A stretch of 64,000 nt of DNA from Hyaloperonospora brassicae. Taxonomy: Eukaryota > Oomycota > Peronosporomycetes > Peronosporales > Peronosporaceae. The notes beneath the pieces were generated by a model. It was not told where the DNA came from and did no database searches. It was given only the letters and a program-made list of their open reading frames with translations. Positions 27,967-59,530 of this stretch are shown piece by piece. A program made the position numbers and the translations under genes. The stretch lies in assembly GCA_947650285.1 (NCBI GenBank), contig CANTFL010000550.1, positions 62,001 to 126,000 of the forward strand, given 5' to 3'. Every line of letters begins with the position of its first letter. Position 1 is the stretch's first letter.

Positions 27967-28445
27967 TGTAGCGGATCTACACAGCTCCTTAAATCAGAGG
28001 AATATTTAACGCTCTACGAGTAACTTTGGTTCTACGAACCCGACTCAGAGAGTCGCCAAGCCTAGAGATCTTACGTTCCTTGTTCCAGGAGGACCAAACG
28101 ATTCAGAGAATCAACGCGCAGAGTGCAAGAGTAGTAGATGCCTTAACAAGGCGTTTCTAGCCTCCTCAACGATCACAAGACGCCTCGTAAGGCACGTGTC
28201 TATCGGGTCAAAATGGGAACTGAACTTTATTTCTTCTTTTAACCTAAAATAACACCTTATAACAACGTAATTAACCTACTCGCTAATGTCCTAATTAAAT
28301 CCTCCAACAATATCTCGTAATCAATGGTTGACAGACATCAGTCTTCAGCAATTGATACTGTGATCTAAAATCTCTTTAAGGGGTCCCACCCATTGTGTGC
28401 ACCACACCTATCGTCGACTATCAGCCAACGTGTAACCCCGTTACA
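27967..28445 (-). repeat. 3' LTR of the older Ty3/Gypsy element
   Basis: 479 bp, starting TGTAGCGG and ending CCCCGTTACA, the same terminal type as the other LTRs of this clade in the window. The central roughly 405 bp differ from the right LTR at only two places, but the outer 25-45 bp at each end differ at about 14 positions. Confidence 0.88.
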
Positions 28446-28547
28446 CCCTCCCTCACCAGACTGACGTTACCCCAAACGTCAATCGAAGTCTTTTCTCGAA
28501 ATGTGAGTGTGCTTCAACCTTACGGTATTTGAAAAACGCGAACGACC

Positions 28548-29782
28548 ATGGCATCGCCACCCCATGAGTCCTCGACTCTCTGTTCGTACCTTTACATTGA
28601 TGTGGAGGTGGACTATGATAGTTATGCCAATGTCCCTGGTACAGAGAGGACAATGTCTGACTCACCAGTTCAAGAGGAAGTCCTCAAACTGCACTGAATC
28701 CAATTGCCGATCGTGGCGAAGCAAACTCTCCACTGGTGCCGCATCAAACATTCATCGTGGGCGATGCAATCATCACCAATCCGCTCGATGAGCAACAACA
28801 GCAAGTAATCCAAAAAGACGAGAACACTTGGCGCCGTATGCAGCTTGCTGCAACCCGTGAGGGCCGTCGTGACTATCTGTTCACTCCACTCGGTGTGGAA
28901 GAAAGTATACGCCAAATGATAGGCCGTTCTTTGGCAAAGTGGGCCATTGGCGCTGAGCAATCATCTCCTGATGAGGTTGCGAGTCGACAAGTACTTCGCG
29001 AGAGGTACTTGGAACCTTACTTGACGACTCAAAGTCAATACAAGTTGCGACTTGACGCGCAAGCACGGATTGCACCGGCTCTACCGATAAAGGGTATACC
29101 CATCCTCCGATTCGCATGCGGATCGCAGGAGGAAGAAGAAAATGCTTTTGTTCGCTGGGTGCATCGGAAACGACACCTCACCAGCATGTTCGCTCTAAGA
29201 ACAAGTGCCAATGTGGCAGACGTTCGTCTATACCGAAAGCTTCGGTATGATTACACCAAAATATAGGCCAGAGAACCAATTGCGAACTCGCACACGGTAT
29301 GCTCCGTCTGTGCCGATTGAAGCGAGTGTTTGTCAAGCGGCATCCAGCTGCCCACCTGCTTCAACCACTATGGATGAGAAGCGCTCTCGGTCGAAGGATG
29401 ACCCCTGCCACGATGTTCAAAAACATCAACGGCGTATGGGAAATCATGCCGAAGGAGTACCTCAAACTCCTATGAGCTCTCCGACTCCGAGTACCCTCGC
29501 CACTTCACCAGATATGGTATTGAACCAGACGACGTCGTCTTTTTAGGAGTCTCTCCACATGAAACTGTCGGTTCCCTTGCTCATCGAGCAGCGTCTGATG
29601 AGGTCGGTGAACCGAATGACGAGCTTGCGAAGCTGCGTCGTGAGGTAGTCTGTCTCCGCGAGACCTTGGGTAAGACCCATAGTGCGCTGAGCGCGACATA
29701 AGCTCGCCTTCAGGCGCTCGAGTTGGGTCAAACCCGGATTGAGGCTTTACTTATCCTCCTGATTTGGTCCAGAAGCCGATAA
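28548..29782 (+). pseudogene. Antisense extra ORF of the older Ty3/Gypsy element, broken
   Basis: This region lies on the strand opposite gag-pol, between the integrase end and the 3' LTR. It starts at an ATG in a good context (GACCATGG, 28548). The first 45 codons are followed by a stop and frame change, then a long open stretch, 28736-29266 (176 codons). The end, near 29560-29782, reads as a coiled coil (DELAKLRREVVCLRETLGK) with one in-frame TAA. I recognise no family. The matching position and coiled-coil end in the 43270-51287 element suggest a shared accessory gene. Confidence 0.55.
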
Positions 29783-30936
29783 CAATGCCACATGTCGCAG
29801 CGCAAGCGCCTCCAAGCTCACGTGGGACGGATCTTGATATGGCTTAAGCAAGCCAACGTAGAACACTACGTGTGTGCGCAATTTGCGCGAAAGGTTAAGC
29901 GTATACGCATATCTCTTTCTGTCGACGACCTTAAATGGTCCAATGAAGCGCGGACTCAACTTTTTATCAAAGACAGCGGAAACTACATTTGTAGGTAAGT
30001 TTTTAGCATTGAGTAGAACTTGGTCTCCGACCTCATAACGTTCAATACCACCTCTGCCTTAAGCATCCGCGGGTTCCTTTCGTTTGTCTTGGCTATCAGC
30101 CAGTGCGTCACGCACAGATCGTAAGACATTCGATCGTTTTGAGAGAAAATCGCTTATCTGTTTTTCAACAGTATCAGGGCTAATATCAGCAAGCCGATCG
30201 GCAACTCCTCCCCCACCAAGCCCTGAACCACGGAGTGGGAGCGTTAACGGAACTCGAGGGTATGTGAAACCATTCACGTAGAACGGTGTGTAGCCGGTGG
30301 AGGCATGCACGGCAAAGTTCAACGCATAATCAACCACAGGGAGAATCAAACCCCAACGCTTAGACGTTTCAGCGCAAGCACTACTCATTATGTCACCGAT
30401 GGTGCGATTCACTCGCTTGGTTTGACCATCAGTCTGCCGAAGATCCGCTGTGGACATGTCCAATCGTGTGGCAAGCACCTTGAAGATGGACTTCCAAAAC
30501 GTCCCAGTGAAGCGAGGGTCTCTATCAGAGATAATTGCCAGTTGCAAGCCATGTTGTCGAAACACCCGATCAATAAACAGCATAGCTGTACCTTCACCAT
30601 CAATGGTATCCGGCACCGCCGCGAAATGAGCCATCTTATTGAAACGGTCAAAAAAAGACCACGATACCCGTATTTCCATAAGGAGCAATTAATAAACCAA
30701 ACAGGAGATTCATACTGATGGACTTCCAACACCCCTTGGGTATAGGCAATCTAGCCAGCGGCGTTGCCTCGTGTGGTGAGGGTTTCACCCGTTGACACGT
30801 TTCACACGTACGCACATATGTGCTCACCCATTTCTATAAAATGGGCTACCGATAGCATTGGTAAACTGAGCCATAGGTCCTCTCACGACCGAGATTACCA
30901 CTCAACGCAGTATCATGTGCCTCATCGAGGTCCGAT
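29747..30936 (-). pseudogene. Integrase of the older element, catalytic Glu changed to Lys
   Basis: The minus strand shows the second half of the zinc module (CETCQRVKPS, just above 30720), the core (FFDRFNKMAHF; SDRDPRFTGTFW) and the C-terminal GPY/F module (SPRFIGPFKVVDRKRYAYTL, 29747-29959). The D,D-35-E triad keeps both Asp residues, but the Glu is Lys (DGQTKRVNR, codon 30416-30418), so strand transfer should fail. Stops separate the three modules. Confidence 0.85.
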
Positions 30937-30937
30937 A

Positions 30938-31591
30938 CTATAACTCCTCATCATGAGGGACAACGATACGAGGATTATCCTTAACATATGTGCTACAGCA
31001 CAACAGGCCTTGATCGATGGAAAATCGATGTAACCTCGCACGAAACCGTGCCGGCAATTCTATGTCCGAGTCCTTAAACCACTCGTTCCCAAGAGCACGT
31101 AGAAGATCTACGAAGTGTTCATCCTTGGCATAAGCCATACAAATTAGGTCGGTGACCGACGACGAAAGAGTCGTAACATGAGCAAGCTCATAGTTAGGCC
31201 TGCGAGACAGAGCAACAGCCAAAACATTCTGCTTGCCCGGCTTATAATTCACCTCTAAGTTGTACTCGGCAAAGAAGGAAATCCAACGAGCCATTCTCTG
31301 AGAAAGGTGAGGCGACTGGGTCGCAGTGCGTAGTGACGCATGACCGGTATAAATCACAAATGGCTTGGAGCCAAGCAGATGAACTCTGAATTTGACAAGA
31401 GCATACTTCATTGCACGTAACCCCTTGTCATAAACTGGGTAGTTCTTTTCTGAAGCTTTACGCTGTCGAGATTCAAACGTGATGAAGCGCTCTCGTCCAT
31501 CAATGTCTGTTTGTAATAGAGCACTGCCTATGGCAAAGTCAGATGAGTCACATACGACACTGAAAGATCGATCAGGATTAGGCAAAGCCAA
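30938..31591 (-). pseudogene. RNase H domain of the older element, three catalytic residues lost
   Basis: The 217-codon frame is a full-length Ty3/Gypsy RNase H with linker. The first Asp is present (VVCDSSDFAIGSAL, Asp15). The Glu is Gly57 (YDKGLRAMKYAL), the next Asp is Gly83 (IYTGHASLRTA) and the last Asp is Val125 (VLAVALSRR). Such a protein could fold but not cleave RNA in hybrids. The open frame with selectively lost active-site residues is unusual beside the stop-ridden neighbours. Confidence 0.85.
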
Positions 31592-32572
31592 GATTGGCGC
31601 GTGATGGAGACTCTCCTTTACTGCTTGAAAAGCAGCATGCTCGGTGCTAGTTCAGCACCATTCCACATTCTTTTTAAGGAGATTGGATAATGGCCGAGCC
31701 ATATATGCTTAATTCGCACTGTACTTGTGCAAGTAATTGGCAAGGCCAAGCCACTCACGTAAGTCCTTTTGTTCCTTAGGAGCCGGCCAACCAACTATGA
31801 CTTTCACCTTATCGGGATCCGCTCGAAGGCCTCGCTTACCAATACAGCACCCTAGAAAAGGAATCTCTTCTGCACTTAAGTTTTATTAAGATGCCTTGGC
31901 ATACAACTTATTTGTGCGCATGCACTCGAGCACTGCTTGTAAATGGTAAATATGATTGTCCACATCCGACCGACCGTTCCTAGCACGACTATGGACAAAG
32001 ACGTCATCAAAGTATGTCTGTGCATAACCTCTATGAGGTCTGAACTTCTATGTCACAAGACAATTGAGCGTAGCCGGGGCATTTGATAATCCTTGAGGCA
32101 TGACAAGCCACTCTTAGAGCATACCGCTTGGAGTGCTGACCACTGTTAGCGGAATATAGGTCTCTCGCATGAGAAGTTGGTAGTAACCATCGACTAAGTC
32201 GAGCGCACTGTGCATTGTGCATCCCACCATATTGTTCTGAAGGACATCCTTCCTCGGAATTGGTGTCTGAGCCGGGATGGTGGTCGCATTAAGCTTATTG
32301 TAAGCATGAACAATGCGCCACTTCCCATTGGTCTTTTTAACACAGAAGGTCGGTGTGGAATACGGAGATATGATCTCACGTACCATTCCTGCCGCGTGCT
32401 TTGCACGAAAGAAGTCGTCAATGACGTCACACTGTTTCTTCGGTAAAGGCCACTGCCGCGTTACGCAGTATTTAGTTCCAGGAACCAGGTCAATTTCATG
32501 ACGTACACCTCTATCCGGAGGAAATACAGACGGTGGGTCGTGACACACCACGTCTTGAAACTCATTTACCAA
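31592..32572 (-). pseudogene. Reverse transcriptase of the older element, YFDD intact
   Basis: Blocks in order are HEIDLVPGTKYCVTRQWPLP, TPTFCVKKTNGKWRIVHAYN, LDLVDGYYQLLMRE, EWLVMPQGLSNAPATLN and YFDDVFVHSRA. The catalytic YxDD is unchanged. A TAA follows PSGML (near 32115), another stop precedes the YFDD block, and the thumb part down to 31600 contains further stops. The domain is recognisable but not translatable as one piece. Confidence 0.85.
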
Positions 32573-33381
32573 AGGATATAACGGATCAAGAGGATCCTTT
32601 AGGATCGAAGATTCAGTATGCGCACTAAGTTCCGCATTTGCGTCCTAAAGGACTGACTCGCCCAATGACGAGGATGAGTTCAACTCAACATCGGGTCGAA
32701 TGAACACTAAATCTTATAAATCTCCTGATTTTTAGGCTTGGATGAATTCGCCATCAGACATTTCGTCTGGCTCAAAGAGAGTATTCAAGGAAGGAAGACT
32801 CTCAAGACTAATGTTGATAATAACATGGCCGTTCATTTTATTGACAAGTGTATATAGTATATTATTACTATCATCACTCCTTAACACCTCGGGCGTTTGG
32901 CGCTTAACAGTTGCCACCCGACGCCGAGATTGTTTCCTTAAAGAAACTTTACGCCTCCTAGAGGCCGAAACAGTAGGGTCCCCTTAGTTACTATTTACCA
33001 TACCACGCTTCACACTAGATCTCATGTCTTAAAGAAAGATTGTTGAAGAGCATCGTAACTCGAACACTTCACCCGGTGAATTTTCGCGTACCACTTCACG
33101 TGCATTATGTGAACCTAGCCCTGAATGCTTCAACTTCTTGCCAACAATGTCAGTACCGACATTCAGTGAGGTTCCATCTCGGTCGCCCTCACTCGGTGGA
33201 ATCTGACGTGCCACCCCACTCACATCAGAATATTTACATTCTTGATGACTCGTTCCTAGGCCAACAATGCTTTCAGCATGCAGTGACTCAGTATCACAAC
33301 GAGTATCACTCAACCTTTGTACAACTTACATCACATAAGGTGAAAGAGCTCCGCTCACTATTTATGTCATTAACATTGTAG

Positions 33382-33830
33382 TCAATAAACTCTGACAACC
33401 CAATGTCCAGCACATTGACATCTTCCCTCAAAAGGCTTGCTCCAATAGTGCTTTTGTTGCCTAGCGAAGGTGGGTTCATGACTCTCCAAAGCTTTACTAG
33501 AAACATTGCGCGTTGCACCTAAGGTCTTACACCTCCAATCAATCAATGGCTCATGGCATTCAAGCCAAGCCATACCCAGGATGAGGTCATATCTATAATC
33601 CAAATCGAGGACAAGACAGCGTTCAATGCTGTCAAAGTCTTAAAACTTCACATCTAAGTTCAACGGAACTTTAGGCACTGTGAAGCGACTACCAGTCGCT
33701 AGACGAACGGTGATTGAATCACCCTCATGCGCTTTGAGAGCTTCAGCATATCGCTGACTCCCTCAAGGGAACGACGTCGAGCACAATTTCATGATGCTCC
33801 TGAATCGATATAAATCGACCACTGCTCCTC
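33382..33830 (-). pseudogene. Aspartic protease region of the older element
   Basis: Near 33795-33815 the minus strand reads IYIDSGAS followed directly by a TGA. The triad D-S-G is kept. Downstream, the frame 33603-33382 has the second protease strand (YDLILGMAWLECHEPLIDW). The stop right after the active-site loop makes this copy inactive. Confidence 0.7.
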
Positions 33831-34060
33831 AAATCCTTTCACTGTCGCCTCGGCGACTAACAAGACAGGCTTGTACCCATGCTCTGTGATGGCTGGCACA
33901 GAGCTCAGTGGGAATAGGCCCTGTTTAACTCTACCTCGTAGAGACGTGACAGAACATAGTTCCAGCCCAGTAGGGCGCCCCGCGCCTACTGGGTATCGAC
34001 TTTTCCCCGTGCCATATCATATTTCTGGTAAAGGCCGGGGTTTATACTCGTAGGAGTATG

Positions 34061-35026
34061 TTATTGCTTACGCAAAAGATAAGTGGGAAGCAGGTGTTTA
34101 CTAGTTCCGCACATGTAACAGCGTCTCACATCTTTTCGTTGCTCTGCAACATGAAGCCCCGCTTCACTTTCATCTTCATCATGGCTAAGATCCATCAATT
34201 CTGGATTACAGTAAGCCAAGTTTATCGCAGAGATTGCCACCGCAAAGCTTGGGTTGTATCCATTCCAACCAAGTCTGGCCGACTCGAAGCTATGCTCAGC
34301 ATTTTGATCGATGCTCACAGCCTCCTCAAAAGTAGAGAGATGGACCCGAAATACCCCGGTTCTGGTCACGCCAGTGCGAAGACCATCCATCAAGACAGTC
34401 ACGTAGACGGTCTCAGGGAGAGGGTCGGACTGCATAGCAGCCATTAGAGTTCTCAAATCTTGGACATAGGCCATTAACTTATTCTTACCCTGACGGGTAG
34501 ATAAGAAGAGTGAGCGCACGCGATAAGCCTGGTTAGGCGGCGAGAAAACTCGCAATAGGTCTAACTTGAGCGAATCCCATGTGGGAAACGCCAAGTCGAC
34601 AGACGGGTCACACGTCAGAGCCCACTCTCAAGCTTTTCTATCGAGCTTGGAGATAGCCAGCGAGACCCGCTGGTTCTCAAGTGAGATGAGGCCATATACC
34701 ACGGCAATCTCAATATCACGGATCCAGAGGGTGGGGTTTCCCCCCTCCTTTCCGGAGTAATGTTTAACGTCCACCCGAAGGGAACAAGGCTTAGCCTCTT
34801 CTGGTGGCATTGCCACGGAGCGTGGTGGCATAGCCGACGCAACTTGGTTTTGAACCTGCCTTAAAAGGGATGTTTTATGCTGCATGACGGTCTCGACTTG
34901 TGCTTTTAGCACATCGGGACCTTGTGCAACTAGAAACTCCACATACTCAGGGCCTACGGTCACGGTCAGATTATCAAGCGCAACCTTTTGAGCTTCAGGG
35001 AGAGGTGTGGATTTCTCCATCCTCAC
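34061..35026 (-). pseudogene. Gag of the older element
   Basis: Two open stretches, 35026-34628 and 34594-34061, are in the same frame and are separated by a TGA. The first holds a helical N-terminal part and the start of the Gag core (PTLWIRDIEIAVVYG). The second has [20 protein letters not shown] and ends in a zinc knuckle. The knuckle reads [14 protein letters not shown], that is C-x2-C-x4-H-x4-Y: the last Cys is replaced by Tyr. Gag would form the particle and bind RNA. Confidence 0.85.
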
Positions 35027-35065
35027 AGCGGATCAGTCGTCACCGACTCAGGCTTAGATTGAACA

Positions 35066-35077
35066 CAAAGGCTACCA
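35066..35077 (-). other. Primer-binding site of the older element
   Basis: The plus strand reads AAAGGCTACCA ending at 35077, two bases before the 5' LTR. GCTACCA matches the acceptor end of eukaryotic initiator Met tRNA. The 43270-51287 element has the same arrangement. Confidence 0.65.
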
Positions 35078-35079
35078 AG

Positions 35080-35558
35080 TTTATCCGAGCTACACATCTC
35101 TTTAAGTCAGAGGAAGATTTAACGCTCTACGAGTAACTTTGGTTCCACGAACCCGACTCAGAGAGTCGCCAAGCCTAGAGATCTTACGTTCCTTGTTCCA
35201 GGAGGACCAAACGATTCAGAGAATCAACGCGCAGAGTGCAAGAGTAGTAGATGCCTTAACAAGGCGTTTCTAGCCTCCTCAACGATCACAAGACGCCTCG
35301 TAAGGCACGTGTCTATCGGGTCAAAATGGGAACTGAACTTTATTTCTTCTTTTAACCTAAAAGAACACCTTATAACAACGTAATTAACCTACTCGCTAAT
35401 GTCCTAATTAAATCCTCCAACAATATCTCGTAATCAATGGTTGACAGACATCAGTCTTCAGCAATTGATACTGTGATCTAAAATCTCTTTAAGGGGTCCC
35501 ACCCATTGTGTGCACCACACCTATCGTCGACTACCAGCCGACATGTGACTTCGTTACA
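35080..35558 (-). repeat. 5' LTR of the older Ty3/Gypsy element
   Basis: 479 bp, the same length as the left copy. The start has decayed to TTTATCCG and the end reads TTCGTTACA, whereas the middle is nearly identical to the left LTR. Confidence 0.85.
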
Positions 35559-38500: not shown

Positions 38501-39465
38501 TCGTGTGAAAGCCGCGGGCTCGGATGAAATTAACATCATTATTACAGAGATCACGCAAAAGCGCACATGCCTGTTCTAATTGCAATGTACACCAGATAGT
38601 TATATCGAAGTGTCTTACTAGTGTCGCTTGGGTATATTGAACATGCAGCGTTTAAGGAACATTGGACCTACGTGTTTCCTCTTGATCATCGCCCGATCGC
38701 GCTATTTATAATCAACTACAAGTTATTCACCAATATTCCCTCGTTTCGGGTGCGGTCGATGATGTATCAACTGGTTCTAGCAGCTTCAGCTAATTAGTCT
38801 CACAGCCATTGATCCGTTCTTCTCTTCATGTTTTCGTGTCGGTACGCATAGTAGCGACTTTAAACAGTGATCGTCATGTTGCCCTCGTTCTACTTCTAGA
38901 TAATACCCAGGCATCCGACAAGTTGCAACATCCACATCTACTTTATGCGCTGACATGGCTTGACTTTTGCCCCACTTCGCACTCGTCGTGGCGGAATTAC
39001 ACCGCAACACGACCTGCCGATTTCTTGCAAAGGTGAAAGCTTATGTCGCCAAGTACTCAACGGCTAAATTTGACAAGGGTACCCCCTTGCACTACTACTC
39101 TTCTTTATATCCCTTAAAGAGTCTATCGGGTTTCAAGTAAGGTAGGAAATTTGTGGGTACGTCTCACAGCTATGGGCGGAATACCGAGATCAAAGTTACG
39201 TCTAATCTGACGATACTACTGTATACCTTTTCTATCAGTTTGCGGTTACTACGGTTGTAACTATTTTCGATTTATTTTCTCTCACGTGTCGGGTATCCCG
39301 ACAAATTGGGCGAAAAAAATGTTTATTGATCTATACCTTGCGGATAAGTACAACATCTTATTACACGTGGCATCGCTCTGCAGTCTTCCAGAGACTCTTG
39401 CAGATAACTTGGTGTTCTGTTGGGACAGCAGTGTGGTGTAGAGAACCTCAGCTCCGGGATATTAG
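35559..39465. other. Degenerate intergenic DNA, no gene recognised
   Basis: Many short frames on both strands, none with a family I can name. Some stretches near 35671-36890 look like worn coding sequence, possibly transposon-derived, but no motif decides it. Confidence 0.5.
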
Positions 39466-39658
39466 TTCGGCAACTTCAGAGTCGGCGAATTCAGTGTCGG
39501 CGACTCGGGTGTCGGCGACTCAAGTGTCGGCGATTCGGGTGTCGGCGACTCGGGTATCGGTGATTCGGGTGTAGGTGAATCGGGTGTCGGAGACTCGGGT
39601 GTCGCCGAGTCGGGTGTCGGCGATTCAAGTGTCGTCGACTCGGGTGTCGGCAACTCAA
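39466..39658. repeat. 15-bp minisatellite, about 13 units
   Basis: The unit is close to GTGTCGGCGACTCGG with scattered changes. On the minus strand a frame (39905-39462, 147 codons) reads through it as a Pro/Thr/Ser/Glu repeat of type SPTPE. The period of 15 keeps the frame. The rest of that frame has no recognisable domain, so coding is possible but unproven. Confidence 0.8.
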
Positions 39659-42667: not shown

Positions 42668-43146
42668 TGTAACGGGGTTTCACATCGGTTCGTAACCGAC
42701 ACAGCATATGTGCTTTACACCAGGGATGAACTCCCAATGGAATTGATATTAGAAAACCGTATCAGTTGTTGAGGGCTGAAGTGTGTCAGCCATCGAATAC
42801 GAGATCTTTTGAGAGGTATTAATCCGAACATTAGTGTCTAGATTAAGGACGTTTAGTCTGAGGTGTTCTTTTAGATAGCAACAGATAAGGTTCAGTTCCC
42901 CTTTTGATCTATTAGATACACGCGTCTTCTAAAGGCAATTTTGATCATAAGAGAGTCAAGTCTTCTTGAGACACAGACTCGTTAGCACAACGTGCAGCCA
43001 ATTCGCTGAATCGTTAAGGTCCCTTGAACAAATACCTGGAAATGTAAGCTCGTTGGCTCATTGAGTAGAGTTCTTGTAAAGAGCTGCTTTGCTCACTGAG
43101 CATATAAAGCCTTCCTCTGGCTAGGAGCTGTGATAGCTCCGCTACA
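42668..43146. repeat. Solo LTR inserted in the old RNase H
   Basis: It starts TGTAACGGGG, ends CTCCGCTACA, is 479 bp long and is homologous along its length to 13764-14237. The flanks GTTCT and ATTTT could be an aged target duplication. It interrupts an RNase H reading frame, which shows that it is an insertion. Confidence 0.75.
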
Positions 43147-43269
43147 ATTTTAGTGCTTTCGCAACATCGAACTCGACACCCTCCACGCAAGACACACTTG
43201 TTGCGGTTACTTCGAGAGGCACGATACATAGCTAATGATATCGATGTCTCCAGTTGGAGACATTATTGT
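43147..43269 (+). pseudogene. Old retrotransposon RNase H remnant, second part
   Basis: It continues the RNase H frame after the solo LTR: LSQHRTRHPPRKTHLLRLLR, then ANDIDVSSWRHYC. The frame is cut again by the 43270-51287 element and resumes at 51293. The last five bases, ATTGT, are the left target duplication of that element. Confidence 0.65.
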
Positions 43270-43661
43270 TGTAACGGGGCACACCCTTGCGTGACCTTAA
43301 CTCAAGGGTTTCGGTGCCCCGACAGACGTACACGAGGCAAACGAGGAAGCGTAGATAAGGTAAAAGCAGAACTGTTATATTAATATAATTAAGTCTTTCA
43401 ACCACTGTCTCTCTGTTTGACTTAACTTAATTATACTAATCTAACTGAGTGTATGGTGACGTCTCGTCACCACTCGTTGCGCGCGTCTTGCGGCGATTGG
43501 TGGGTTGATATCATCAAGATATCAACCAATGAACAGACTCTTTGGTCGACCCATCAATATCACCACTTTGGTGATATTCTTTAAAGAATATCCAACTTCA
43601 TATTCTTTATTGTCATTGTCTTTTAAACGACAATTTCCATGTAACGGGCTGCCCCGTTACA
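43270..43661 (-). repeat. 3' LTR of the hairpin-rich element
   Basis: 392 bp. Internal inverted repeats include GGTTGATATC/GATATCAACC and AATATCACCA/TGGTGATATT. One hairpin that is perfect in the right LTR (50908-50934) is partly spoiled here by ACGC changing to ACTC. Confidence 0.95.
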
Positions 43662-43672
43662 CCCCCCCCCTT
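43662..43672 (-). other. Polypurine tract of the hairpin-rich element
   Basis: The plus strand has a run of C just after the LTR, so the minus strand reads AAGGGGGGGGG immediately before the 3' LTR: the expected plus-strand primer. Confidence 0.75.
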
Positions 43673-43791
43673 AACTGATAGTCACCGTGTGGCTATCGAA
43701 AATATGGCGGCCACCCGTTGGCCACCATTGGGAAAGGGAGCACTTGTTGGGTCCGTTCCATTCACTTTCCGCTTGACCTCGCATAGTTAAC

Positions 43792-45398
43792 ATGTCTATG
43801 CGAGGTGACTCAAGGCACACAGAGTCTGTGCCTGTGCCAGACTCTGCGGCAGACGATTCGTCGTCTGCTGCTTCTTCTTCGCCTGCAGCAACAGGTGCTG
43901 CAGGTGCACGCGGCACCTCACCGCGTGCGCATGATGACCCCGACGTTGAGGTCATCTATTCTGGCGAGTCAGACGTGTCTGACTCAGGCAATGCTCCAGA
44001 ATCGTCTCGCTCACCGGCGACGCCTCAGTATTCGCCAAGGCCACTGCCGAACGAACGGACTCGTGATTTGCATCACAGTCTATTCGGCAGTGATGACGAT
44101 GATCAGGGCGGTGAGGAATATTTTTCCTTACCACCACCGGCTCGTGCGTCTTCGCACGAGCGTGATGACGATGGCGCGAGCCGTCGTCAATCTGGGAGCC
44201 GTGGTACCGACAAGGGTACCACTGTGAAGCGTGATGAGCTGAAGCCGTGGCGTTTTCCCGATCGGCTCATCAATAGCTTGTCTCATGAGACAAGCCAACA
44301 CCATCGAATACCCTTATTCGATGCGACTGAGCTTCACGGCTTGAGTTCCAGCGCGCAGAACTTTCGCGCTGAAGAAGATTTTTATCTCGATGTCTTTCTT
44401 AGACATCGATGGTACAACAGCAACCAAACGCGTGACAAGGCCTCGCTTTTGGCTGCGTGGAACGCGTTCGTCCAAAACGTCAAGAATTTTGGACGAGAAG
44501 GGTGGCTCAAGAAACTTGAGGCGACACGCCTCAGGTTCGAAAAACGAACGCCAACCGGTGCTACTTACCGGTTGCACTGTATGTCGAGTGAGGCAGACAT
44601 TCCTTGCCTCACATAGGGAGACCCTTGTGCGAGTTGTGTTGACAACTCGCAGCGTGCACATAGGGACGTGTATTCCCTAAGTTCACCCTGGGGAAGGGCA
44701 CACATCTCGGCTGAGATGCGTGACGCGATTGCAAACTTGCAATCCGCCTACAAGCGCCAAAAGCGCGTATTTATCGATGGGCATGAGGACCTATCGCATG
44801 AGTCTCGTCATACGGGCGGACGAGACCTTCAACATCCACCAACAGCTGAGAGCGGGGCTCCCAGCTGTTCCAAGAGGATGGATACCCCCGCCACTGGACG
44901 AGGTAGCTCGTCCTTAATCCTGAATCGTCACGGTTATTCAAGATAAGCTCCACTAGAAAGCGTTGATCACCGTGAGAATCCACCAAAGGATGTGGTGGAG
45001 GAGGAAAGACCTCCTCCAGATGATTCGGTTCACCATCTCGACCCTTACGAGATGGATCGCGCAATCGATGAATTGCGCGATGACTTGAAGCACGAGCGCG
45101 ACCGGCGCTACGCTTTGACTGATACCGTGCGGAAGAACCGCAAGGATCACGAGGCTGATCGGGCGAGGGATCGCGCCGATTATGCCACAGCGCAGCTTCA
45201 GGTCGAGCGGGATATCCGCTCCTTTTTGGCGAGCTGGCGACAGCTCGCGGGGAGATATCTCGGTTGAGTTCCGAGGTATCATATCTGCGCGACCAGACGG
45301 ATCGTCTGGAGCGCGAACGCAAGAAATTGATGGATGTTCTTCAACGTGGGGGCTATCTTCATCGGAAGAAGAAGGCTCGTACTGACAGTACGACCTAA
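43792..45398 (+). pseudogene. Antisense accessory ORF of the hairpin-rich element, about 535 codons, broken
   Basis: This region runs opposite to gag-pol. One frame stays open from the ATG at 43792 to 45267 except for a TAG (44614-44616) and a TAA (44944-44946); a frame change near 45230-45265 restores the last 40 codons, ending at a TAA (45396-45398). Parts in order are an acidic Ser-rich start; a block LKPWRFPDRLINSLSHETS and a Trp/Leu-rich helical region; a Cys-rich patch (HCMSSEADIPC, then DPCASC after the TAG); a coiled coil (DELRDDLKHERDRRYALTD, later LRDQTDRLERERKKLMDVL); and a basic tail HRKKKAR. No known family is recognised. The shape suggests a nucleic-acid-binding or oligomerising protein, by inference only. 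Confidence 0.6.
44771..45322 (-). pseudogene. C-terminal chromodomain of pol, hairpin-rich element
   Basis: The end of this frame (about 44968-44790) reads RFLVELILNN, then SYLVQWRGYPSSWNSWEPRS, a typical chromodomain with the aromatic/WEP pattern. Chromodomains at the integrase C-terminus of chromoviruses steer insertion toward modified chromatin. The upstream Ser/Arg-rich linker is in another frame than the GPY/F module, so a frameshift separates them. The plus strand of the same bases belongs to the antisense reading frame. Confidence 0.75.
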
Positions 45399-45399
45399 G

Positions 45400-46003
45400 C
45401 CTCCCCACGTAAAACGTAGGATGCGTGCGCATCCTACGTGGCAATTCGAGTGTGTATGCATTGCCCTTGCGATGCAACACTCGAAATGGCCCAATGTATT
45501 TCGGCAGTAGTTTACTACGGTCGACACTAGTGACTGCATGTCCAGGTAAGTTTACCGTAGACAGTAGTACTAGGTCATTAACTTTAAATGAAAGAACATT
45601 TGCTCTTCCATTCTTGTCTGCGTTCCGTTTCTGACGGTCCACCGCATTTTCGATGGAGTCCTGAACGAAACGGACTACCGCTTCTCGAGTCAGCAGAAAG
45701 TTCTCTGCTGACTCTTTGTTTTGTCTTAGCAGTGCGCTTCGTGCGCACTGCTAAGAGATTGCTCTCTTCTTCAGCAAGGTTGTCTTCTTCCTCGCTGGAA
45801 TAATCGTTGACGATGCTGAATATCCCAGCATCGTCATCATCATCCGAGTCAATAATAGCGTCATCGCTATTATTGAGGTGATCTTCTTCATCGATGTCGA
45901 CCTGATCGACATCGGCATCATACGTGACGACATTAGCGTCGACACGTGATGAGCAAGAGCCAAAACGGTTTTTGCTCGAGCGAGTCCCTCCCCCCTTATT
46001 CAA
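45400..46003 (-). pseudogene. Acidic insert and GPY/F module of integrase, hairpin-rich element
   Basis: After a TGA near 46000 and a frame change, the minus strand encodes a very acidic segment (DQVDIDEEDHLNNSDD, then DSDDDDDAG and SSEEEDNLAEEE) and a basic tail. A second frame change near 45640 leads to the GPY/F module (LLPKYIGPFRVLHRKGNAYT, then RTHPTFYVGRL). The acidic insert between integrase core and GPY/F is not something I know from typical chromoviruses. The region also holds an inverted repeat with 13-nt arms (45725-45755). Confidence 0.75.
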
Positions 46004-47322
46004 GAGTCACACTCGAGAAGGGTTGGCACACGTGGATGGCGTAAGCCATTCACGTAAAACGGTGTGTGCTGTGTGGAAGCATGCACCGAATTATTGATGG
46101 CGAATTCCACCATGGGTAGGAATTCGCTCCAACTCGGAAACGAGTGGACATATCCTCGAAGGATCTCTTCGAGGACACGGTTCGCACGTTCCGTCTGACC
46201 ATCTGTTTCGGGATGGTCAGAAGTAGACATCTTCAATCGTGTTCCAAGAGAACGGAAAAAGGTTTGCCAAAATGCCGCCGTGAACCGAGGGTCACGGTCG
46301 GATACGAGTTCACGGGGTAACCCGTGGAGTCTAAAGACCGTGTCGAGAAAGACACGAACACAACCTTGAGCCTTGATCAACTCGGGTACAGCGGCAAGAT
46401 GGACCATCTTGCTGAATCGGTCAACAAACACAAGAATACCATTATTCTTGTGAGCGTCTTCGGGGAAACCGAAGACGAAGTCAATTGAAACGGACTGCCA
46501 GCACTCTGTCAGAACAGACAGAGGCTGCAATGGCGCACGGGATGAAGGACTAGGCTTCACCCGTTGACAAACCTCGCAAGCATGTATGTACTTACGAACA
46601 AACTGATACTGGCGTGGCCAGTAAAAGTCACGACTTACCGTGAGGTAAGTCTTTTCTCTACCACGATGGCCGCCTGTTGGGGCATCGTGACACTCATACA
46701 TGATGCGAAAACGCAAATCAGGATGAGCGGGTACGACGACACGAGGCGTGTCGTCGGCAACATCTGTATAGTACAGCAATCCGTTGCGTGTACTATACCG
46801 ATCCGATGAGGATCGGTACAAAGCCGGTAAATCCCTCATGGATTTACTGGATGAATTCACCAGATGATCCATCAATCGCAGAAGATCCTTATCTTCTGCG
46901 TATGCCTTTCGTACGTCGTCAAGTAAACTTGACGTCGGAACACTGACTGACAGTGTCGCAACAGTGGGCTTATCCTCACTGTCGAATTGTACGTCTGGCT
47001 CGAAATCGGGCCAGCGCGAGAGCGCATCAGAGACGACATTAAGTCGGCCTGGTTTATACTCTACGGAGAAGTTATACTCCGCGAAGAAAGACAGCCACCT
47101 CGCCATTTTTTGCGAGAGGTGCGGGCTGTTTACGGCCGTGCGTAATGACGCATGATTCGTATAAACAACAAACGGTCTATCTCCCAATAGATAGACGCGA
47201 AACTTAGCCAGTGCGTGCTTCATGGCAAGGAGTTCTTTGTCATGTACTGGGTAATTGCATTCAGCTGCTTGCAGCTGACGCGACTGATAACAGATGACGC
47301 GCTCCGCGCCATCTGCATCGTA
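46000..47322 (-). pseudogene. RNase H and integrase core of the hairpin-rich element
   Basis: It continues the RT frame after a TAG (47323-47325). RNase H keeps the Glu (VHDKELLAMKHAL) and the last Asp (VVSDALSR), but the middle Asp is Asn (VYTNHASLRTA, residue 23 after the Met at 47223). The integrase zinc module is complete (CHDAPTGGHRG and HACEVCQRVK). The core has all three catalytic residues: VDRFSKMVHL, SDRDPRFTAAFW and DGQTERANR. It ends at a TGA near 46000. The integrase itself looks able to fold and act. Confidence 0.88.
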
Positions 47323-49068
47323 CTACATTAACGCACAGCCGATTGCAAAATCGCTGGCGTCATAGACCACATGAAATGGTCTGTCCTGATCTGCAATCGC
47401 CAAGATCGGCGATTGCATCAAGCTTTGCTTGATACCCTCAAAGGAACGCTGGCATTCAGCGCTCCATGACCACTTGACATTTTTCTTGAGCAGACAAGAA
47501 AGATGAACATTCATCTTGGCGTAGTTGCGCGAGTTCTTGTGCAAGTACGCCGCTAGCCCAAGGAACTTCCTTAGTCCCTTGACATCGACTGGCACTGGTA
47601 AGTCGGTGATCGCCTTGATCTTTTCGGGATCAGGGCGTACGCCGTGTTTACCCACGATGCACCCAAGAAGTGGTATTTCGCTAGCCGTGAATATACACTT
47701 CTTGAGGTTGGCGTACAACTTATAATTGCGCATAAGTTGAAGAACCTGACGAACGTGAGTTCTGTGAGCTTCAACGTCCGTCTTTCCGTCCACAGCCCGG
47801 CTATGGACGAACACATCGTCGAAGTAACTCGGTGCGAAGTCTCGCACCGGTCTCAACAGATTTGTGACACATCTGTTGAGTGTTGCAGGGGCACTACTCA
47901 GCCCCTGTGGCATCACTAGCCACTCCCACAGCATCCCGCTGGGGGTACTCACTGCTGTGAACGGGATGTCCCGTTCACGCATGAGGATCTGATAGAATCC
48001 ATCCATCAGATCCATGGACGAATAGATGTTACTCTTTGACATACCATCTATGATGACGTCCTTTCTCGGAATCGGAGTCTGTGCCGGTACCGTTGCAGCA
48101 TTCAACTTGTTGAATGCGTGCACTATCCGCCACTCTCCTGTGGCCTTTCGCACACAGAAGGTCGGAGAGCTGTGAGGGGATGCTGATTCCCTCACATGCC
48201 CCACTGCTAAGCGATCGAAAAAGAACTTGTCGATCGCTAGTAGTTGTTCACGAGGCAGTGGCCACTGCTTCATGACGCAGTACTTCGAGCCCAGTCTGAG
48301 ATCGATCTCGTGTCGAGTGCCTTTGTCCTTAGGCAACTCGCAAGGTACGGATTCAGGGAACACATCCCTGAATTCGATCAGATCCTTATACAAAGAATTT
48401 GCCTGAAGTGACTCCCAGGATTGAGACGTGTATCGCTCAATCCGAGTCTTCTCATCGAGGACACTTTCTTCCATCGATGAGCTGCTGAGAACCCGTTCGT
48501 TCTCAGCAAATACTGATGCCGACCGAATATCGGCCACATACTCATCCTCTGTGACGAGTACACAGATATGCTTGACTTTGCCACTACGCAGATCACGCAA
48601 GAACCGTTTCGGTTCTAGCGTTGGCATCTGAGTTATCTCCGAAGTTAACTTGGTAGGCACAATCAGATCAAGCGTATAAGCGCCTACGCTTGATCCGTCA
48701 TTAACCAAGACGTTCAACGTCTCGGTTTCTTCCTGGGAACTTGCTTCCACAGGTCGCTGAGGGACTGATCCCTCAGCAAATGACTCCAGAGGAATTCCTT
48801 CCTCAAGTACGTGAGGGCTTATTCCCTCGAAGTCTTCTGACTGTGGCTGTGCAACCACAGTCAGGCACCGATCCTCTACGGTCGACTCTCCAGTCGACCT
48901 AGGATATCCATGTTGCCCTTTTAGGCAACGGTTTCTTCTGTCTAAGATGCTGCCCGCTAGGCATGCATCCATGTCCCGGTCCACTCGACTTATTCGAGTA
49001 ATGAACCTTCGGCGCAGCCTGTACTTCTGTACAGCCGCCGGGAGCTTGCTCCACAGTGTAGTGATCAA
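47323..49068 (-). pseudogene. Reverse transcriptase of the hairpin-rich element, otherwise intact
   Basis: A long open frame of 581 codons ends at a TAG (47323-47325) just inside RNase H. Blocks visible are HEIDLRLGSKYCVMKQWPLP, SPTFCVRKATGEWRIVHAFN, SMDLMDGFYQILMRE, WLVMPQGLSSAPATLNR and the active site YFDDVFVHSRA, followed by the thumb (LLGCIVGKHGVRPDPEKI) and the start of RNase H (VVYDASDFAIGCAL). It is in a different frame from the protease, so a frameshift lies between 49068 and 48899. Confidence 0.9.
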
Positions 49069-49612
49069 CTACACTATGATCTTGTGCAGTCGTGCTAACG
49101 ACCGTACCGCAAGTGAGGCGATCGCACTCACTCGCAGAACATCCACACGCTTGTGGACGCTCCAAGATGTTCATCAGATGGCCATCTGATGAACAAGCGG
49201 CAGGCATCTTCACGGATCGATGCTGCCAGCTCATCCTTGGCTCGTACTTTCTGAGCCAAGGTAATCCCAGGATGACATCAAATTTGTCATCCAGATCTAG
49301 CACGATGAAGTCATCATCGTACTGTTCGCCCTCTAACGTGTAGTGGATTCCTACTACACGTTTCTCAACGGTTATCGATGCGCCTGTTGCAAGGCGCACC
49401 GTCGTCCTCATGAGGGGAATGTCCCGCTCAACGAACTTGAGCCTACGACCTTCTAGTGACTGGCGACGAACAAAGTTGTTCGACGCCCCACAGTCTACTA
49501 GGGCACGAAGCGACAAATCATTTGTCGCTTCCAACTTCAAGGTGATGAGCGAAACGTCATCAACAGGTGCAGAGACACACAATGATTGTGTATCTGGAGC
49601 AACTTTCGTCAA
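48899..49612 (-). CDS. Aspartic protease of the hairpin-rich element
   Basis: The 237-codon frame contains ALVDCGASNNFVRR (active-site loop, Asp-Cys-Gly-Ala) and FDVILGLPWLRKYEPRMSW (second strand), as in retroelement proteases of this group. Downstream is a Cys/His-containing linker. The Asp is present. It follows gag by about 50 bases in another frame and overlaps the RT frame, so the polyprotein needs a frame change here or the copy carries an indel. Confidence 0.85.
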   Translation of the reverse strand: MTKVAPDTQSLCVSAPVDDVSLITLKLEATNDLSLRALVDCGASNNFVRRQSLEGRRLKFVERDIPLMRTTVRLATGASITVEKRVVGIHYTLEGEQYDDDFIVLDLDDKFDVILGLPWLRKYEPRMSWQHRSVKMPAACSSDGHLMNILERPQACGCSASECDRLTCGTVVSTTAQDHSVVDHYTVEQAPGGCTEVQAAPKVHYSNKSSGPGHGCMPSGQHLRQKKPLPKRATWIS

Positions 49613-49662
49613 GAGATTTGCAAATTCTCTTGAGGTTGCTGGATCAGTAGGGCGCTCCGCCC

Positions 49663-50850
49663 CTACTGACCCCGACCATTTTTTGATGGTCCGTCTCGCT
49701 GTTGCGGCTTCGCAACAGCGCTGGACCCACGCCCATTGCCCTTTCTGGCGAATGATCGTCCATTTCGCTCAGTACTGTTTGGTACTGGGCGTGGAGCACT
49801 ACACTCGTATGCGTAGTGCCCTAACTTCTGACAGCGATTGAACCTCTGCAACCGCTTGTTGTTTGAAGAGCGAGGTCTCTCGCTCTCAACATAGCAGAGG
49901 TCCATTGGTTTTGGACCTCCGATCTCTTGTCGTCTTGGTGGACGATAAGAGTTTGAGCTAGCATGAGCCTGTCTCATGCTAAAGTCTTCCTGTTCTGCGG
50001 CTGATATCGCTTCTTCAAGCGTATTCAGCTCAAGGCGGAACAGGTGGCTCCTGACGGGCCCTTCTGCGAGCCCTTGCATGAACACCGTAATCAACGTGTG
50101 TTCATGGACTGGGTTGGCAGTTATACTACTCGCGAGGAGTCGTATATGTTGTGCGTAAGCGTGCACATCACGCTTTCCTTGCTTGAGTTTCAGGAGCTCT
50201 GAACGAGCCCTGAACTCAGCCCGTGGCGGCTCAAGCGTTTGTCTGAGCCGGGACTTGAAGTCATCTAGCGACCTAAACACATTTGGGTCGCTACTCTCGA
50301 GCCCCAGGGACCAAGTTTTGGCACGCCCTGCCAAGTGGGTCTGAGCAAATGTGAGTTTCATTTGCTCATCTTCGACGCGACGAGCCCTTAAGGCTCTGTC
50401 GAGTTCGACAAACCATAGTAACAGGGAGTCTTCCGGGACTCCACTGTACTTGGAGATGTCAACTTTCATGACCTCGGGAAGACGCGCATGTGCCGTCCCG
50501 CCCACAGCAGCATGGAATTGCTGCTGTCTCAACAGCTATGTCTGTTGAGCACCGAGTTCTCTCAACTGCTCGGCCTGTTGAGCATCGAGTTCTCTCAACT
50601 GCTCAGCCTGTTGAGAGCCTTGCTGGTGAAGCAAGGCTACTTTCTCCCTTTCGGCAACAAGTTTATGTTGATTGAACTTGGCTATAGCGGCATGTTGTTG
50701 GTCTCTGTCTAGAGACTCCAACATGGCGCTAATGGCGAACTCGCCTACGGTAGAACTCATTCGTTCTACCGCACCCCATTCGATGTCACTCAAATGGGTA
50801 AACCCTTCACGCGTGGCGTGAAAGGTCTCTTCATCATCCAACATGTTCAT
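49663..50850 (-). pseudogene. Gag of the hairpin-rich element, one internal TAG
   Basis: A single frame runs from the ATG at 50850, with a TAG at 50536-50538, to 49663. The N-terminal 104 codons end in two heptad-like repeats (QQAEQLRELDA, QQAEQLRELGA), a coiled coil. After the TAG comes the Gag core (SLLLWFVELDRALRARRV; QTHLAGRAKTWSLGL; LLASSITANPVHEHTLITVF). The zinc knuckle reads FNRCQKLGHYAYEC: the first Cys of C-x2-C-x4-H-x4-C is Phe. Otherwise the length, about 395 codons, is normal. Confidence 0.88.
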
Positions 50851-50875
50851 GTTGGATGTTAAGGTCCTTGGAAGG

Positions 50876-50892
50876 ACTACAAAGTGCTACCA
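50876..50892 (-). other. Primer-binding site of the hairpin-rich element
   Basis: The plus strand reads ACAAAGTGCTACCA ending at 50892, two bases before the 5' LTR. TGCTACCA fits the acceptor end of initiator Met tRNA; upstream bases do not match well, so the usable pairing is short. Confidence 0.65.
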
Positions 50893-50894
50893 GG

Positions 50895-51287
50895 TGTAAC
50901 GGGGCACACCCTTGCGTGAACTTAACGCAAGGGTATCGGTGCCCCGACGGACGTAAACAAGGCAAGCGAGGAAGCGTAGGTAAGGTAAAAGCAGAACTGT
51001 TATATTAATATAAGTAAGTCTTTTAACCACTGTCTCTCTGTTTGACTTAGTTTAACTATACTAATATAACTGGATGTATGGTGACGTCTCGTCACCACTC
51101 GTTGCGCGCGTCTTGCGGCGATTGGTGCGTTGGTATCATCAAGATATCAACCAATGAACAGACTCTTTGGTCGACCCATCAATATCACCACTATTGGTGA
51201 TATTCTTAAAAGAATATTCGACATAATATTCTTTATTGTCATTGTCTTCTAAATGACAATTTCCATGTAACGGGCTGCCCCGTTACA
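50895..51287 (-). repeat. 5' LTR of the hairpin-rich element
   Basis: 393 bp, closely matching the left LTR. It begins with a perfect hairpin, ACCCTTGCGT/ACGCAAGGGT (50908-50934, loop 7). The right target duplication ATTGT follows at 51288. Confidence 0.95.
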
Positions 51288-51480
51288 ATTGTCGCACCTA
51301 CAAATGGCGGATCGACTGGCGAATATCTCTATGGACGCTGGGGCTTTTGTCTATGTGCACGCTCCCACAGACCAAGGTGCTGTCAAGGTGGCTACGACAT
51401 GTATCGACAATGATGTCGACTAATGGATGTTGCCCTCTCAAGCCGAACACCACGTATACTATAGGGCCTCGAGCTGAAAT
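51288..51480 (+). pseudogene. Old retrotransposon RNase H remnant, third part
   Basis: Beyond the target duplication the plus strand reads MADRLANISMDAGAFVYVHA and, after a stop, WMLPSQAEHH, matching the C-terminal end of the RNase H whose front lies at 42546-43269. The last catalytic Asp (MADRLAN) is present. This proves that the 8 kb element was inserted into this older sequence. Confidence 0.65.
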
Positions 51481-54800: not shown

Positions 54801-54923
54801 CTCACTGCCCAGCCTTCACACTATTCTGAGCGGCGCTTTCGCGGTTTATGCTCCGACTTTGCTAAGGTTTGTCGCAAGGAGTTAACGGCAGACGCGCTTC
54901 ACTCGATCGAGATGCCCAACTGA
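51835..54923 (+). CDS. Transportin-3/MTR10-like nuclear transport receptor (importin-beta family)
   Basis: Receptors of this family carry cargo, such as SR splicing factors, through nuclear pores under control of Ran-GTP. Exon 1 starts at an ATG at 51835 (a second ATG at 51841 is equally possible) and ends at 51897. The intron 51898-52040 has GTACGT...CCCTAG ends. Exon 2 runs from 52041 to the TGA at 54923, giving about 980 residues, close to MTR10. The N-terminus has the importin-beta pattern: REANEFLNTFAASDAAWSIG, then LEALFFAANMLHTKIRKEW. An exportin-1/importin-beta-like region follows, and helical HEAT-type repeats fill the rest. Which receptor subtype it is cannot be fixed by eye. Confidence 0.85.
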
Positions 54924-59240: not shown

Positions 59241-59362
59241 CCCGTCACCACCGCGTCCCGTCTGACGCAGTATCCTGTCTCCCACCCACCCCGCGCGCCC
59301 GTCACCACCGCGTCCCGTCTGACGCAGTATCCTGTCTCCCACCCACCCACCCACCCCGCGCG
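59241..59362. repeat. 57-bp tandem duplication upstream of cystathionine beta-synthase
   Basis: Units start at 59241 and 59298 with CCCGTCACCACCGCG; the second is lengthened by extra CCCA repeats. C-rich on the plus strand, ending about 170 bases before the CBS start. A TCCG run follows at 59467-59486. Effect on the promoter unknown. Confidence 0.8.
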
Positions 59363-59530
59363 CCCGTCCACGACCAGGGCGCAGGCTTCAACAACACTCG
59401 TCCGTCATTGCGTCCAGAAAAGAGACGACCCCTCCACCCCCTCCACCCGTCCACTCCCCACCAGTCAGTCCGTCCGTCCGTCCGTCACTCAGTCATTCGT
59501 CACTCCCTTTGGTCGACACGCAGTGTAGCC

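Follow-up and report, generated by a model that had tools for sequence, protein, structure and literature searches.

Why would an LTR retrotransposon carry short, perfect inverted repeats from one end to the other? The question is raised by an element at positions 43270-51287 of the 64,000-nucleotide stretch of Hyaloperonospora brassicae DNA analysed here (the window), for which the original prediction had proposed repair of near-palindromes by template switching or selection for a highly folded RNA. Our tentative answer, to which we assign a probability of roughly 0.4 as a whole, is that both strands are kept self-folded and that this hinders sense/antisense duplexes and small-RNA targeting.

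Structure of the element

The element is a Ty3/gypsy retrotransposon with a chromodomain and is transcribed from the minus strand (Table 1); the antisense ORF is the plus-strand frame near the low-coordinate end, which corrects the earlier reading. Protease, reverse transcriptase (RT), RNase H and integrase follow one another in this order, the two LTRs (93.4% identical) have TG...CA ends with a 5-bp duplication on either side, and PBS- and PPT-like sites were spotted by eye. The chromodomain follows the integrase both here and in another copy, L016 (E=1.2e-13). In most other fetched copies gag is an ORF of 396 aa, whose zinc-knuckle matches fall below the cut-off. Thus, LTRs, gag, the PR-RT-RH-INT order, a Tf2-1-like SH3 module, the chromodomain and the 5-bp duplication are shared with chromodomain Ty3/gypsy (chromovirus-like) elements. 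What sets this element apart from them is saturation with hairpins over its whole length, which was lacking in the families sampled in the same genome outside its RT clade.

Table 1. Features of the window (strand "." where none applies)
Feature	Position	Strand	Remarks
Second, older Ty3/gypsy element (L033 family)	27969..35558	-	approximate ends; many short-looped stems of 5-6 bp
Target-site duplication ATTGT, copy 1	43265..43269	.	read from flanks
3' LTR (pol sense)	43270..43661	-	ends TGTAACGGGG...CCCCGTTACA; contains hairpins
99 perfect inverted repeats	43454..51287	.	arm at least 8, loop at most 24; in LTRs, gag, pol and antisense ORF
Antisense ORF, 279 aa	43777..44616	+	flanked by pol and 3' LTR; runs against gag-pol
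Chromodomain	44774..45340	-	Chromo E=1.6e-9
Integrase C-terminal SH3-like module (SH3_Tf2-1)	44956..45750	-	
RNase H and integrase (RT_RNaseH, Integrase_H2C2, rve)	46003..47322	-	
Reverse transcriptase (RVT_1) and RNase H start	47326..49068	-	frame interrupted in the window copy
Aspartic protease region (RVP_2)	48902..49768	-	
gag (Retrotrans_gag, Ty3_capsid)	49663..50535	-	
5' LTR (pol sense)	50895..51287	-	
Target-site duplication ATTGT, copy 2	51288..51292	.	read from flanks

Hairpin content against shuffled sequence

The original prediction had put the number of perfect inverted repeats (arm at least 8, loop at most 20) at more than 50. We counted 96 in 43270-51287, as against 1.8 ± 0.93 in dinucleotide shuffles (n=20), and 34 against 0.2 for arms of at least 10. 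Their spacing, predicted at one per 100-150 bp, is denser in fact (mean 80, median 63 nt for the 99 repeats with loops of at most 24), and the predicted saturation extends, as claimed, over LTRs, gag, pol and the antisense ORF. All nine repeats that had been quoted individually are exact (49169-49194, 45725-45755, 49507-49531, 48666-48695, 43776-43806, 47957-47978, 47852-47880, 49697-49720 and 50835-50858), some with longer arms than stated (11 nt at 50835-50858, 14 nt at 49168-49195 and 45724-45756), and five consecutive hairpins do lie between 46734 and 46900. Host-gene controls were low, as anticipated, with 2 repeats in 52041-54923 (0.9 expected) and none in 57481-61042 (1.5 expected).

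The suggested comparison with codon shuffles (50 shuffles preserving protein and codon usage) gave the same picture: at loops of at most 12, the pol ORF of L016 has 55 repeats against 1.0 (maximum 3 in the 50), and the window's own RT stretch has 17 against 0.6. Along the whole of L016 there are 5-10 hairpins per 500 bp, and 28% of its bases lie in perfect arms of at least 8, or 40% for arms of at least 6. In base composition the arms differ little from the element, and no recognition motif common to the hairpins was seen when the list of 99 repeats was read by eye.

Copies and related families

Hairpins recur in all 20 of the other copies that were fetched, from a total of at least 105; their absence there would have told against the original prediction. 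Older insertions, as judged by LTR divergence, have fewer hairpins (Spearman 0.77, p=3e-4, n=17 including the window copy). Within the same RT clade, two more gypsy lineages are hairpin-rich with shorter stems, so that stem length varies from lineage to lineage, whereas hairpins are absent from two distant gypsy families (L030, L036) and five copia pieces of the same genome. Among the families sampled, the trait is therefore confined to one RT clade, as defined by a tree of six rows, all from this genome. No relatives turned up in the viral-contig and genome-contig collections searched, but RT sequences of 64-91% identity are on record for public genomes of Phytophthora, Peronospora, Globisporangium and Aphanomyces. 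In the second gypsy element of the window, at ∼28.0-35.6 kb, stems of 5-6 bp are common, which the test for arms of at least 8 misses.

Hairpin positions turn over between families. Even so, L032 and L031 share hairpin centres at 7 of 26, or at 8 of 17 when compared the other way round (chance at most 0.1), despite a difference of 57% at third codon positions. First-position divergence between families is in excess in the arms (p 0.01-0.05), which may reflect a protein cost, or stems placed at variable sites. The third-third pairing phase is depleted within the L016 pol ORF (8/58, p=0.0065), as expected if stems arose under protein constraint; gag, the third frame, L031, L032 and L033 show no such codon-phase bias.

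Predicted folding of both strands

Predicted folding energy exceeds that of dinucleotide-preserving shuffles along the element. In the folding check that had been proposed, 35 of 35 segments of 200 nt from the internal part of L016 had z < -2 on either strand (mean z -6.8 sense, -6.6 antisense), and for pol a folding excess of 51.6% is predicted on the sense strand and again 51.6% on the antisense strand. Folded sense RNA of the GORS type contains G-U pairs at normal frequency; here, G-U makes up 5.3% of the predicted pairs as against 12.7% in shuffles, with similar values on the other strand.

Wobble-type mismatches told less. Static one-mismatch stems were without bias between A-C and sense G-U (18 to 17). 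Among shared transitions that break a stem, A-C weakly outnumbers sense G-U: 29 to 13 in total (p=0.02), with 9 to 1 in the 3' region and a non-significant 13 to 9 in pol, and 37 to 23 (p=0.09) for arms of at least 6. This hints at the antisense strand instead of both strands equally. Since the initial ratio of 24:6 fell to 29:13 after 18 more RT-region copies, and since the asymmetry is absent in static stems, we dropped it as a basis for argument.

The ORF between pol and the 3' LTR, 540 aa long in L016, is conserved, with homologues in Hyaloperonospora and Peronospora, and bears a coding signature in its third-position excess, which is.252 in its own frame vs.102 and.129. Judging by this ORF, the element may be transcribed in antisense as well. 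The antisense ORF of the L032 family matches that of L016 by BLASTP at E=0.048, a homology that is uncertain. No antisense ORF of more than 98 aa was found in the 2 kb after the pol of L036; the 2 kb beyond the pol of L030 hold a copia-like ORF by reading of the sequence. Pairing in pol is equally symmetric, though an antisense transcript need not reach pol.

We propose that a Peronosporaceae chromodomain Ty3/gypsy lineage evolved dense, short, perfect hairpins along its full length, largely by changes tolerated by the element's proteins, and that these hairpins would fold equally well on either strand. Selection would act on total self-pairing rather than on individual hairpins, since their positions turn over between families. 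With the sense RNA and the putative antisense transcript both locally folded, fewer duplexes might form between them, and targeting by host Dicer/Argonaute small RNAs might thereby be hindered. According to PMC3522703, the two most abundant Gypsy-type elements of Phytophthora infestans are matched by small RNAs of both orientations, which counts in favour of the silencing idea; the same report describes no antisense bias and notes that processes other than dsRNA-Dicer-Argonaute may operate, which counts against it. Also against it are the equal symmetry of pairing in pol and the differences in stem length between families, which it does not predict. It is conceivable but doubtful that the gypsy clade as such represents a two-strand hairpin chain of lineage-specific stem length, in which selection would keep every stretch self-folding in both strands and so shield an element transcribed in both directions from silencing that depends on duplexes.

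Two other explanations likewise start from folding. Single-stranded cDNA or integrated DNA may be what folds, and the hairpins may protect, compact or guide the cDNA or disturb chromatin. Strict Watson-Crick, strand-symmetric and G-U-avoiding pairing is what DNA hairpins require, and such a role would suit both the presence of hairpins in LTRs as well as in genes and the restriction to one RT clade among the families sampled; yet the copia pieces, L030 and L036 also pass through single-stranded cDNA and have no hairpins, and we regard this DNA-level role as unlikely. Slightly more unlikely still seems GORS-like folding of the sense RNA. It would account for a genome-wide, order-dependent folding excess whose pairings are not kept among distant relatives, and for loops that are A-rich in the sense strand (.326 vs.249 overall in L016,.323 vs.227 in L032), a property not found in L031 or L033. 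However, the antisense folding excess equals that of the sense strand, and sense G-U is not favoured over A-C in either one-mismatch stems or shared changes. Sense-RNA structure alone fits poorly because G-U pairs are avoided on both strands, and sense-RNA-only folding was rejected, as pairing is Watson-Crick on both strands without a preference for sense G-U. Of the 'highly folded RNA' originally envisaged, selection for folding thus held up, and the sense RNA as its only object did not.

Variation within stems

When only those sites are counted at which the reference copy carries the majority base, shared (lineage) variants are rarer in stems (46/1890 sites) than elsewhere (233/4623, p=1e-6), most strongly at third codon positions, in line with the selection for folding suggested at the outset. 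Conservation of the hairpins in the replicating lineage goes beyond what the protein code requires. The effect is largely gone when stem masks are slid along the sequence, and inner pairs (variant rate.020) are more constrained than edge pairs (.042). Private variants were without stem depletion overall (p=0.2). They are nevertheless lower in stems at third positions of pol (27/357 vs 97/828, p=0.04), and overall with L011 as reference (p=0.008), and are therefore not a pure neutral control. The pattern of variants argues for purifying selection on Watson-Crick pairing, and against simple correction by template switching.

On the other hand, hairpins might be a functionless by-product of mutation, accumulating as RT template switching in near-palindromes uses one arm to correct its partner. 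This would account for the perfect Watson-Crick arms, the strand symmetry and the single RT clade among those sampled. Compensatory changes in the arms, for which the original prediction had suggested looking, are present: 5 shared doubles are Watson-Crick and 0 non-pairing, and among the private ones the numbers are 5 and 4. Two differences occur in 54 copy-by-hairpin cells; in 25 of these both lie in one arm (9 of the 25 adjacent), in 18 they are split and unpaired, and 11 cells are compensated. Paired double changes are, however, rare: in the 3' region, 3 shared paired doubles were observed vs 20-23 under unbiased conversion, and at third-third pairs 0 vs 3.0-3.8. Single changes are depleted as well, and stems vary less than the sequence around them instead of changing in pairs at an equal rate. 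Besides, 21 of the 25 one-arm doubles fall in four copies (window, L014, L026 and L019), where they break the stems; a one-arm pattern common to several copies was found only at the L016 hairpin 3611-3634, where the two changes are present in unequal numbers of copies. Given the few paired doubles and the depleted single changes, we rejected template-switch correction as the main cause, and a mutational origin is already disfavoured and appears improbable. Chance, base composition or codon usage can be set aside with near certainty in view of the dinucleotide and codon shuffles and of arms whose composition is close to the element's.

Comparison with known systems

A protein-coding element of 8 kb can thus bear a second, whole-length pairing code over its protein code. 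With at least 105 LTR-datable copies (17 dated), related families with other stem lengths and, as controls, hairpin-free gypsy families in the same genome, the role of large-scale nucleic-acid structure becomes testable. If the silencing idea is true, it would represent a new escape route from RNA interference for mobile elements. A two-strand hairpin chain, if real, would to our knowledge be the most strongly self-folded protein-coding sequence.

The claim that no such element has been described agrees with our literature search, which found no precedent for a hairpin-saturated element among open-licence PMC papers. One close likeness is to GORS, in which a folding excess likewise extends across the whole coding genome, selection apparently acts on folding as such and pairings turn over between distant relatives, as described for coronaviruses (PMC7642675). 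According to the same source, GORS amounts to an excess of 7-23%, with 23.4% as the highest value given for vertebrate RNA viruses, as compared with ∼52% in pol here; moreover, the present stems are perfectly Watson-Crick, avoid G-U and are equal on both strands, and they reside in an LTR retrotransposon instead of a positive-strand RNA virus. Yeast Ty3, also a Ty3/gypsy element, has palindromes and structured regions in its genomic RNA, yet the account in PMC11381356 is of six palindromes at the 5' end and an A-rich, mosaic structure, and does not extend to saturation. Finally, the antisense ORF resembles aORF-3R of plant LTR retrotransposons (Grande, RIRE2 and Retand), which according to PMC7264820 is likewise conserved, antisense and located after pol and before the 3' LTR; it differs in its oomycete host and in a protein without Pfam match above the cut-off. 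The predicted structure of this protein (mean pLDDT 46.6) is confident only in a C-terminal coiled coil, and one of its homologues carries, as a name only, the UniRef designation 'Core-binding domain'.

Hairpin saturation and its extent

The element is an ordinary Ty3/gypsy retrotransposon in its parts, transcribed from the minus strand and flanked by a 5-bp target duplication (ATTGT), with Pfam domains in the order gag, aspartic protease, RT, RNase H, integrase, Tf2-1-like SH3 module, and chromodomain. The frames of the window copy are interrupted; several other copies have intact ones, namely a gag of 396 aa, a pol of 1339 aa, and a 411-aa frame carrying the SH3 module and chromodomain.

Features of the element and other repeats in the window
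Feature	Coordinates	Strand	Remarks
LTR	43270-43661	minus	pair identity 93.4%
LTR	50895-51287	minus	pair identity 93.4%
Antisense ORF	between pol and 3' LTR	opposite to pol	279 aa in window copy, 540 aa in L016 (another family copy)
Second Ty3/gypsy element	~27969-35558		LTRs 97% identical; frames decayed; 130 short hairpins in 8 kb (arm >=5, loop <=6) vs ~47 in shuffles
LTR fragments	22360-22504, 37811-38064		70-72% identity to LTR of 43270-51287 element
Several long hairpins	22231-22684		one TGTAATGGG...CCCATTACA, resembling terminal hairpin of LTR of 43270-51287 element
Fragments	14061-14192, 42745-42907		72-73% identical to LTR of second element
Tandem array	39451-39675		15-bp unit (GTCGGCGACTCGGGT-like)

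The original prediction of an element packed with perfect inverted repeats was borne out: the nine examples it quoted are all exact, and 96 hairpins (arm >=8, loop <=20) were counted, as compared to 1.8 +/- 0.93 in 20 dinucleotide shuffles and chance levels in the host-gene control stretches. Loops are mostly 2-10 nt long. In the pol ORF of L016, 55 hairpins (loop <=12) faced 1.0 after codon shuffling (maximum 3 in 50 shuffles). Hairpins occupy the entire length of this copy at 5-10 per 500 bp, with gaps (mean 44, sd 45) resembling random placement. No precedent for such a nucleic-acid architecture was found in open-licence papers.

The family comprises at least 105 genomic copies, the window's included, and all 20 others fetched carry 92-124 hairpins per locus (arm >=8, loop <=20; flanks included). 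Internal hairpin number drops as LTR divergence rises (Spearman 0.77, p=3e-4), as if hairpins decayed after insertion. This covers 17 copies, the window's among them, for which both LTRs were scored; L010, L012, L020, and L026 were unscored.

Among the sampled RT families of the genome, taken as 4-kb pieces, the trait is restricted to one clade. Stems of ~7-9 bp characterize a single lineage (L032, L031, L038), and L033, together with the second window element, is strongly enriched in short-looped stems of 5-6 bp and has few stems beyond that length. Counts fall sharply above a family-specific ceiling (~10 bp in L016 and its family member L011, 9 bp in L032, 6 bp in L033). Hairpins were at or near chance in the gypsy families L030 and L036, in L034 and L039 (other RT types), and in five copia pieces (L035, L040-L043), with a slight excess at arm 5 or 6 in L040, L041, and L042. 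In the RT tree, the hairpin families (63-88% identical) fall on one side and L030/L036 (~28%) on the other; a single origin is possible. RT relatives in other oomycetes amounted to 2341 proteins, the best 120 of these being listed.

Folding excess over dinucleotide shuffles (350-nt pieces; sense/antisense) was 51.6/51.6% in L016 pol, 36.1/41.7% in the window element's own older RT stretch, 17.7/20.6% in L033, 15.1/15.5% in L032, and 8.9/9.0% in L031. Controls gave -1.3/-2.2% (L030), 4.0/0.2% (L036), 0.3/-0.6% (copia L035), 1.1/4.9% (L034), and 2.9/2.2% and -4.3/-9.2% (host genes). Figures given in PMC7642675, for fragments likewise of 350 yet with a different shuffling program, are ~15% for SARS-CoV-2 and at most 23.4% for vertebrate RNA viruses. 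The folding excess is symmetric between strands. On the pol sense strand, loops are enriched in A in L016 (.326 vs.249 overall) and also in L032, but not in L031 or L033.

Selection versus mutation

Hairpins appear to be kept by selection, not by mutation alone, and persist under constraint. Each position of L016 was compared with 20 copies (19 fetched plus the window's); variants in at least two copies (shared) were taken to have arisen in the replicating lineage, and those confined to one copy (private) to postdate insertion for the most part. Shared variants affected 51/1894 stem, 50/610 loop, and 276/4656 other sites. Since hairpins had been called in L016, the comparison was repeated at sites where it has the majority base (43 dropped): stems 46/1890 vs 233/4623 outside (p=1e-6), with 9/357 vs 50/828 at pol and 1/92 vs 27/233 at gag third positions. 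Private variants did not differ (201/1890 vs 544/4623, p=0.2), except that stems had fewer of them at third positions of pol (p=0.04). The shared rate was.020 at inner and.042 at edge stem positions, and sliding the stem masks largely removed the effect (.041-.062 vs.022-.028). With L011 or L018, another family member, as reference, the shared-variant picture was unchanged; with L011, private variants were also mildly fewer in stems (p=0.008).

Repair of near-palindromes by template switching, also proposed originally, predicts frequent paired double changes, whereas the 3' region held 3 shared doubles against 20-23 expected, and third-third pairs 0 against 3.0-3.8. A search for one-arm patches gave a mixed picture, with 54 copy-by-hairpin cells holding two differences (25 one-arm, mostly in four copies, 18 two-arm, and 11 compensated). 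For some compensated pairs the intermediate is still present.

Third-with-third pairing is depleted in L016 pol (26/8/24 of 58, p=0.0065), and no codon-phase bias was found in gag, the third frame, or L031-L033. First codon positions in RT stem arms diverge more than elsewhere between L016 and L032 or L033 (p 0.01-0.05), as if pairing cost protein conservation. L032 and L031, which differ at 57% of third positions, share hairpin centres in 7/26 and, in reverse, 8/17 cases (chance <=0.1), and sharing between families is near chance (2/31, 2/17, 1/10); single hairpins therefore last a while, and saturation longer.

Which strand may fold, and why

The original notion of a selected folded RNA is supported as regards selection on pairing, shared variants being fewer in stems, but the data accord badly with sense RNA alone. 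A requirement of that kind would yield more sense G-U than A-C mismatches; the reverse was seen among shared changes (A-C 29 to 13, p=0.02), mainly from the antisense-ORF region (9 to 1). The comparison was 13 to 9 in pol (not significant), 37 to 23 with arms >=6 (p=0.09), and 69 to 68 among private changes. L016 stems with one mismatch have 18 sense G-U and 17 A-C, and G-U makes up 5.3% of predicted pairs in sense (12.7% shuffled) and 5.1% in antisense (11.9%). The candidates left are the two strands together, the antisense strand, and DNA.

Outside the stems of the 3' region, shared variants run at.102/.129/.252 for positions 1/2/3 of the antisense codons, which reads as a coding signature in that frame. 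A protein search (7997 candidates scored) returned eight homologues, among them sequences at 49% from Hyaloperonospora arabidopsidis and at 36% from Peronospora matthiolae. In the L032 family, an antisense ORF of 465 aa lies at an apparently corresponding place; its similarity to that of L016 is doubtful (E=0.048). Plant LTR elements with antisense ORFs at this same location are already described in PMC7264820.

We infer that the benefit comes from self-folding as such. The mechanism we prefer is that self-folding may hinder sense/antisense duplexes and small-RNA targeting: an antisense transcript is probable, predicted folding is equal on the two strands, and small RNAs of both orientations occur along abundant Gypsy elements in a Phytophthora relative. 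PMC3522703, the source for these small RNAs, sees no antisense bias among them and leaves room for pathways of another kind. The main rival is a role for folded cDNA. Lineage-specific stem length is explained neither by duplex hindrance nor by any rival, folded cDNA included.

A neighbouring gene places the host among the Peronosporaceae oomycetes: it has a single match in the genome, and its protein is 96% identical to one further record, 76-79% identical to those of Phytophthora nicotianae, infestans, citrophthora, and ramorum and 71% identical to one of Plasmopara halstedii.
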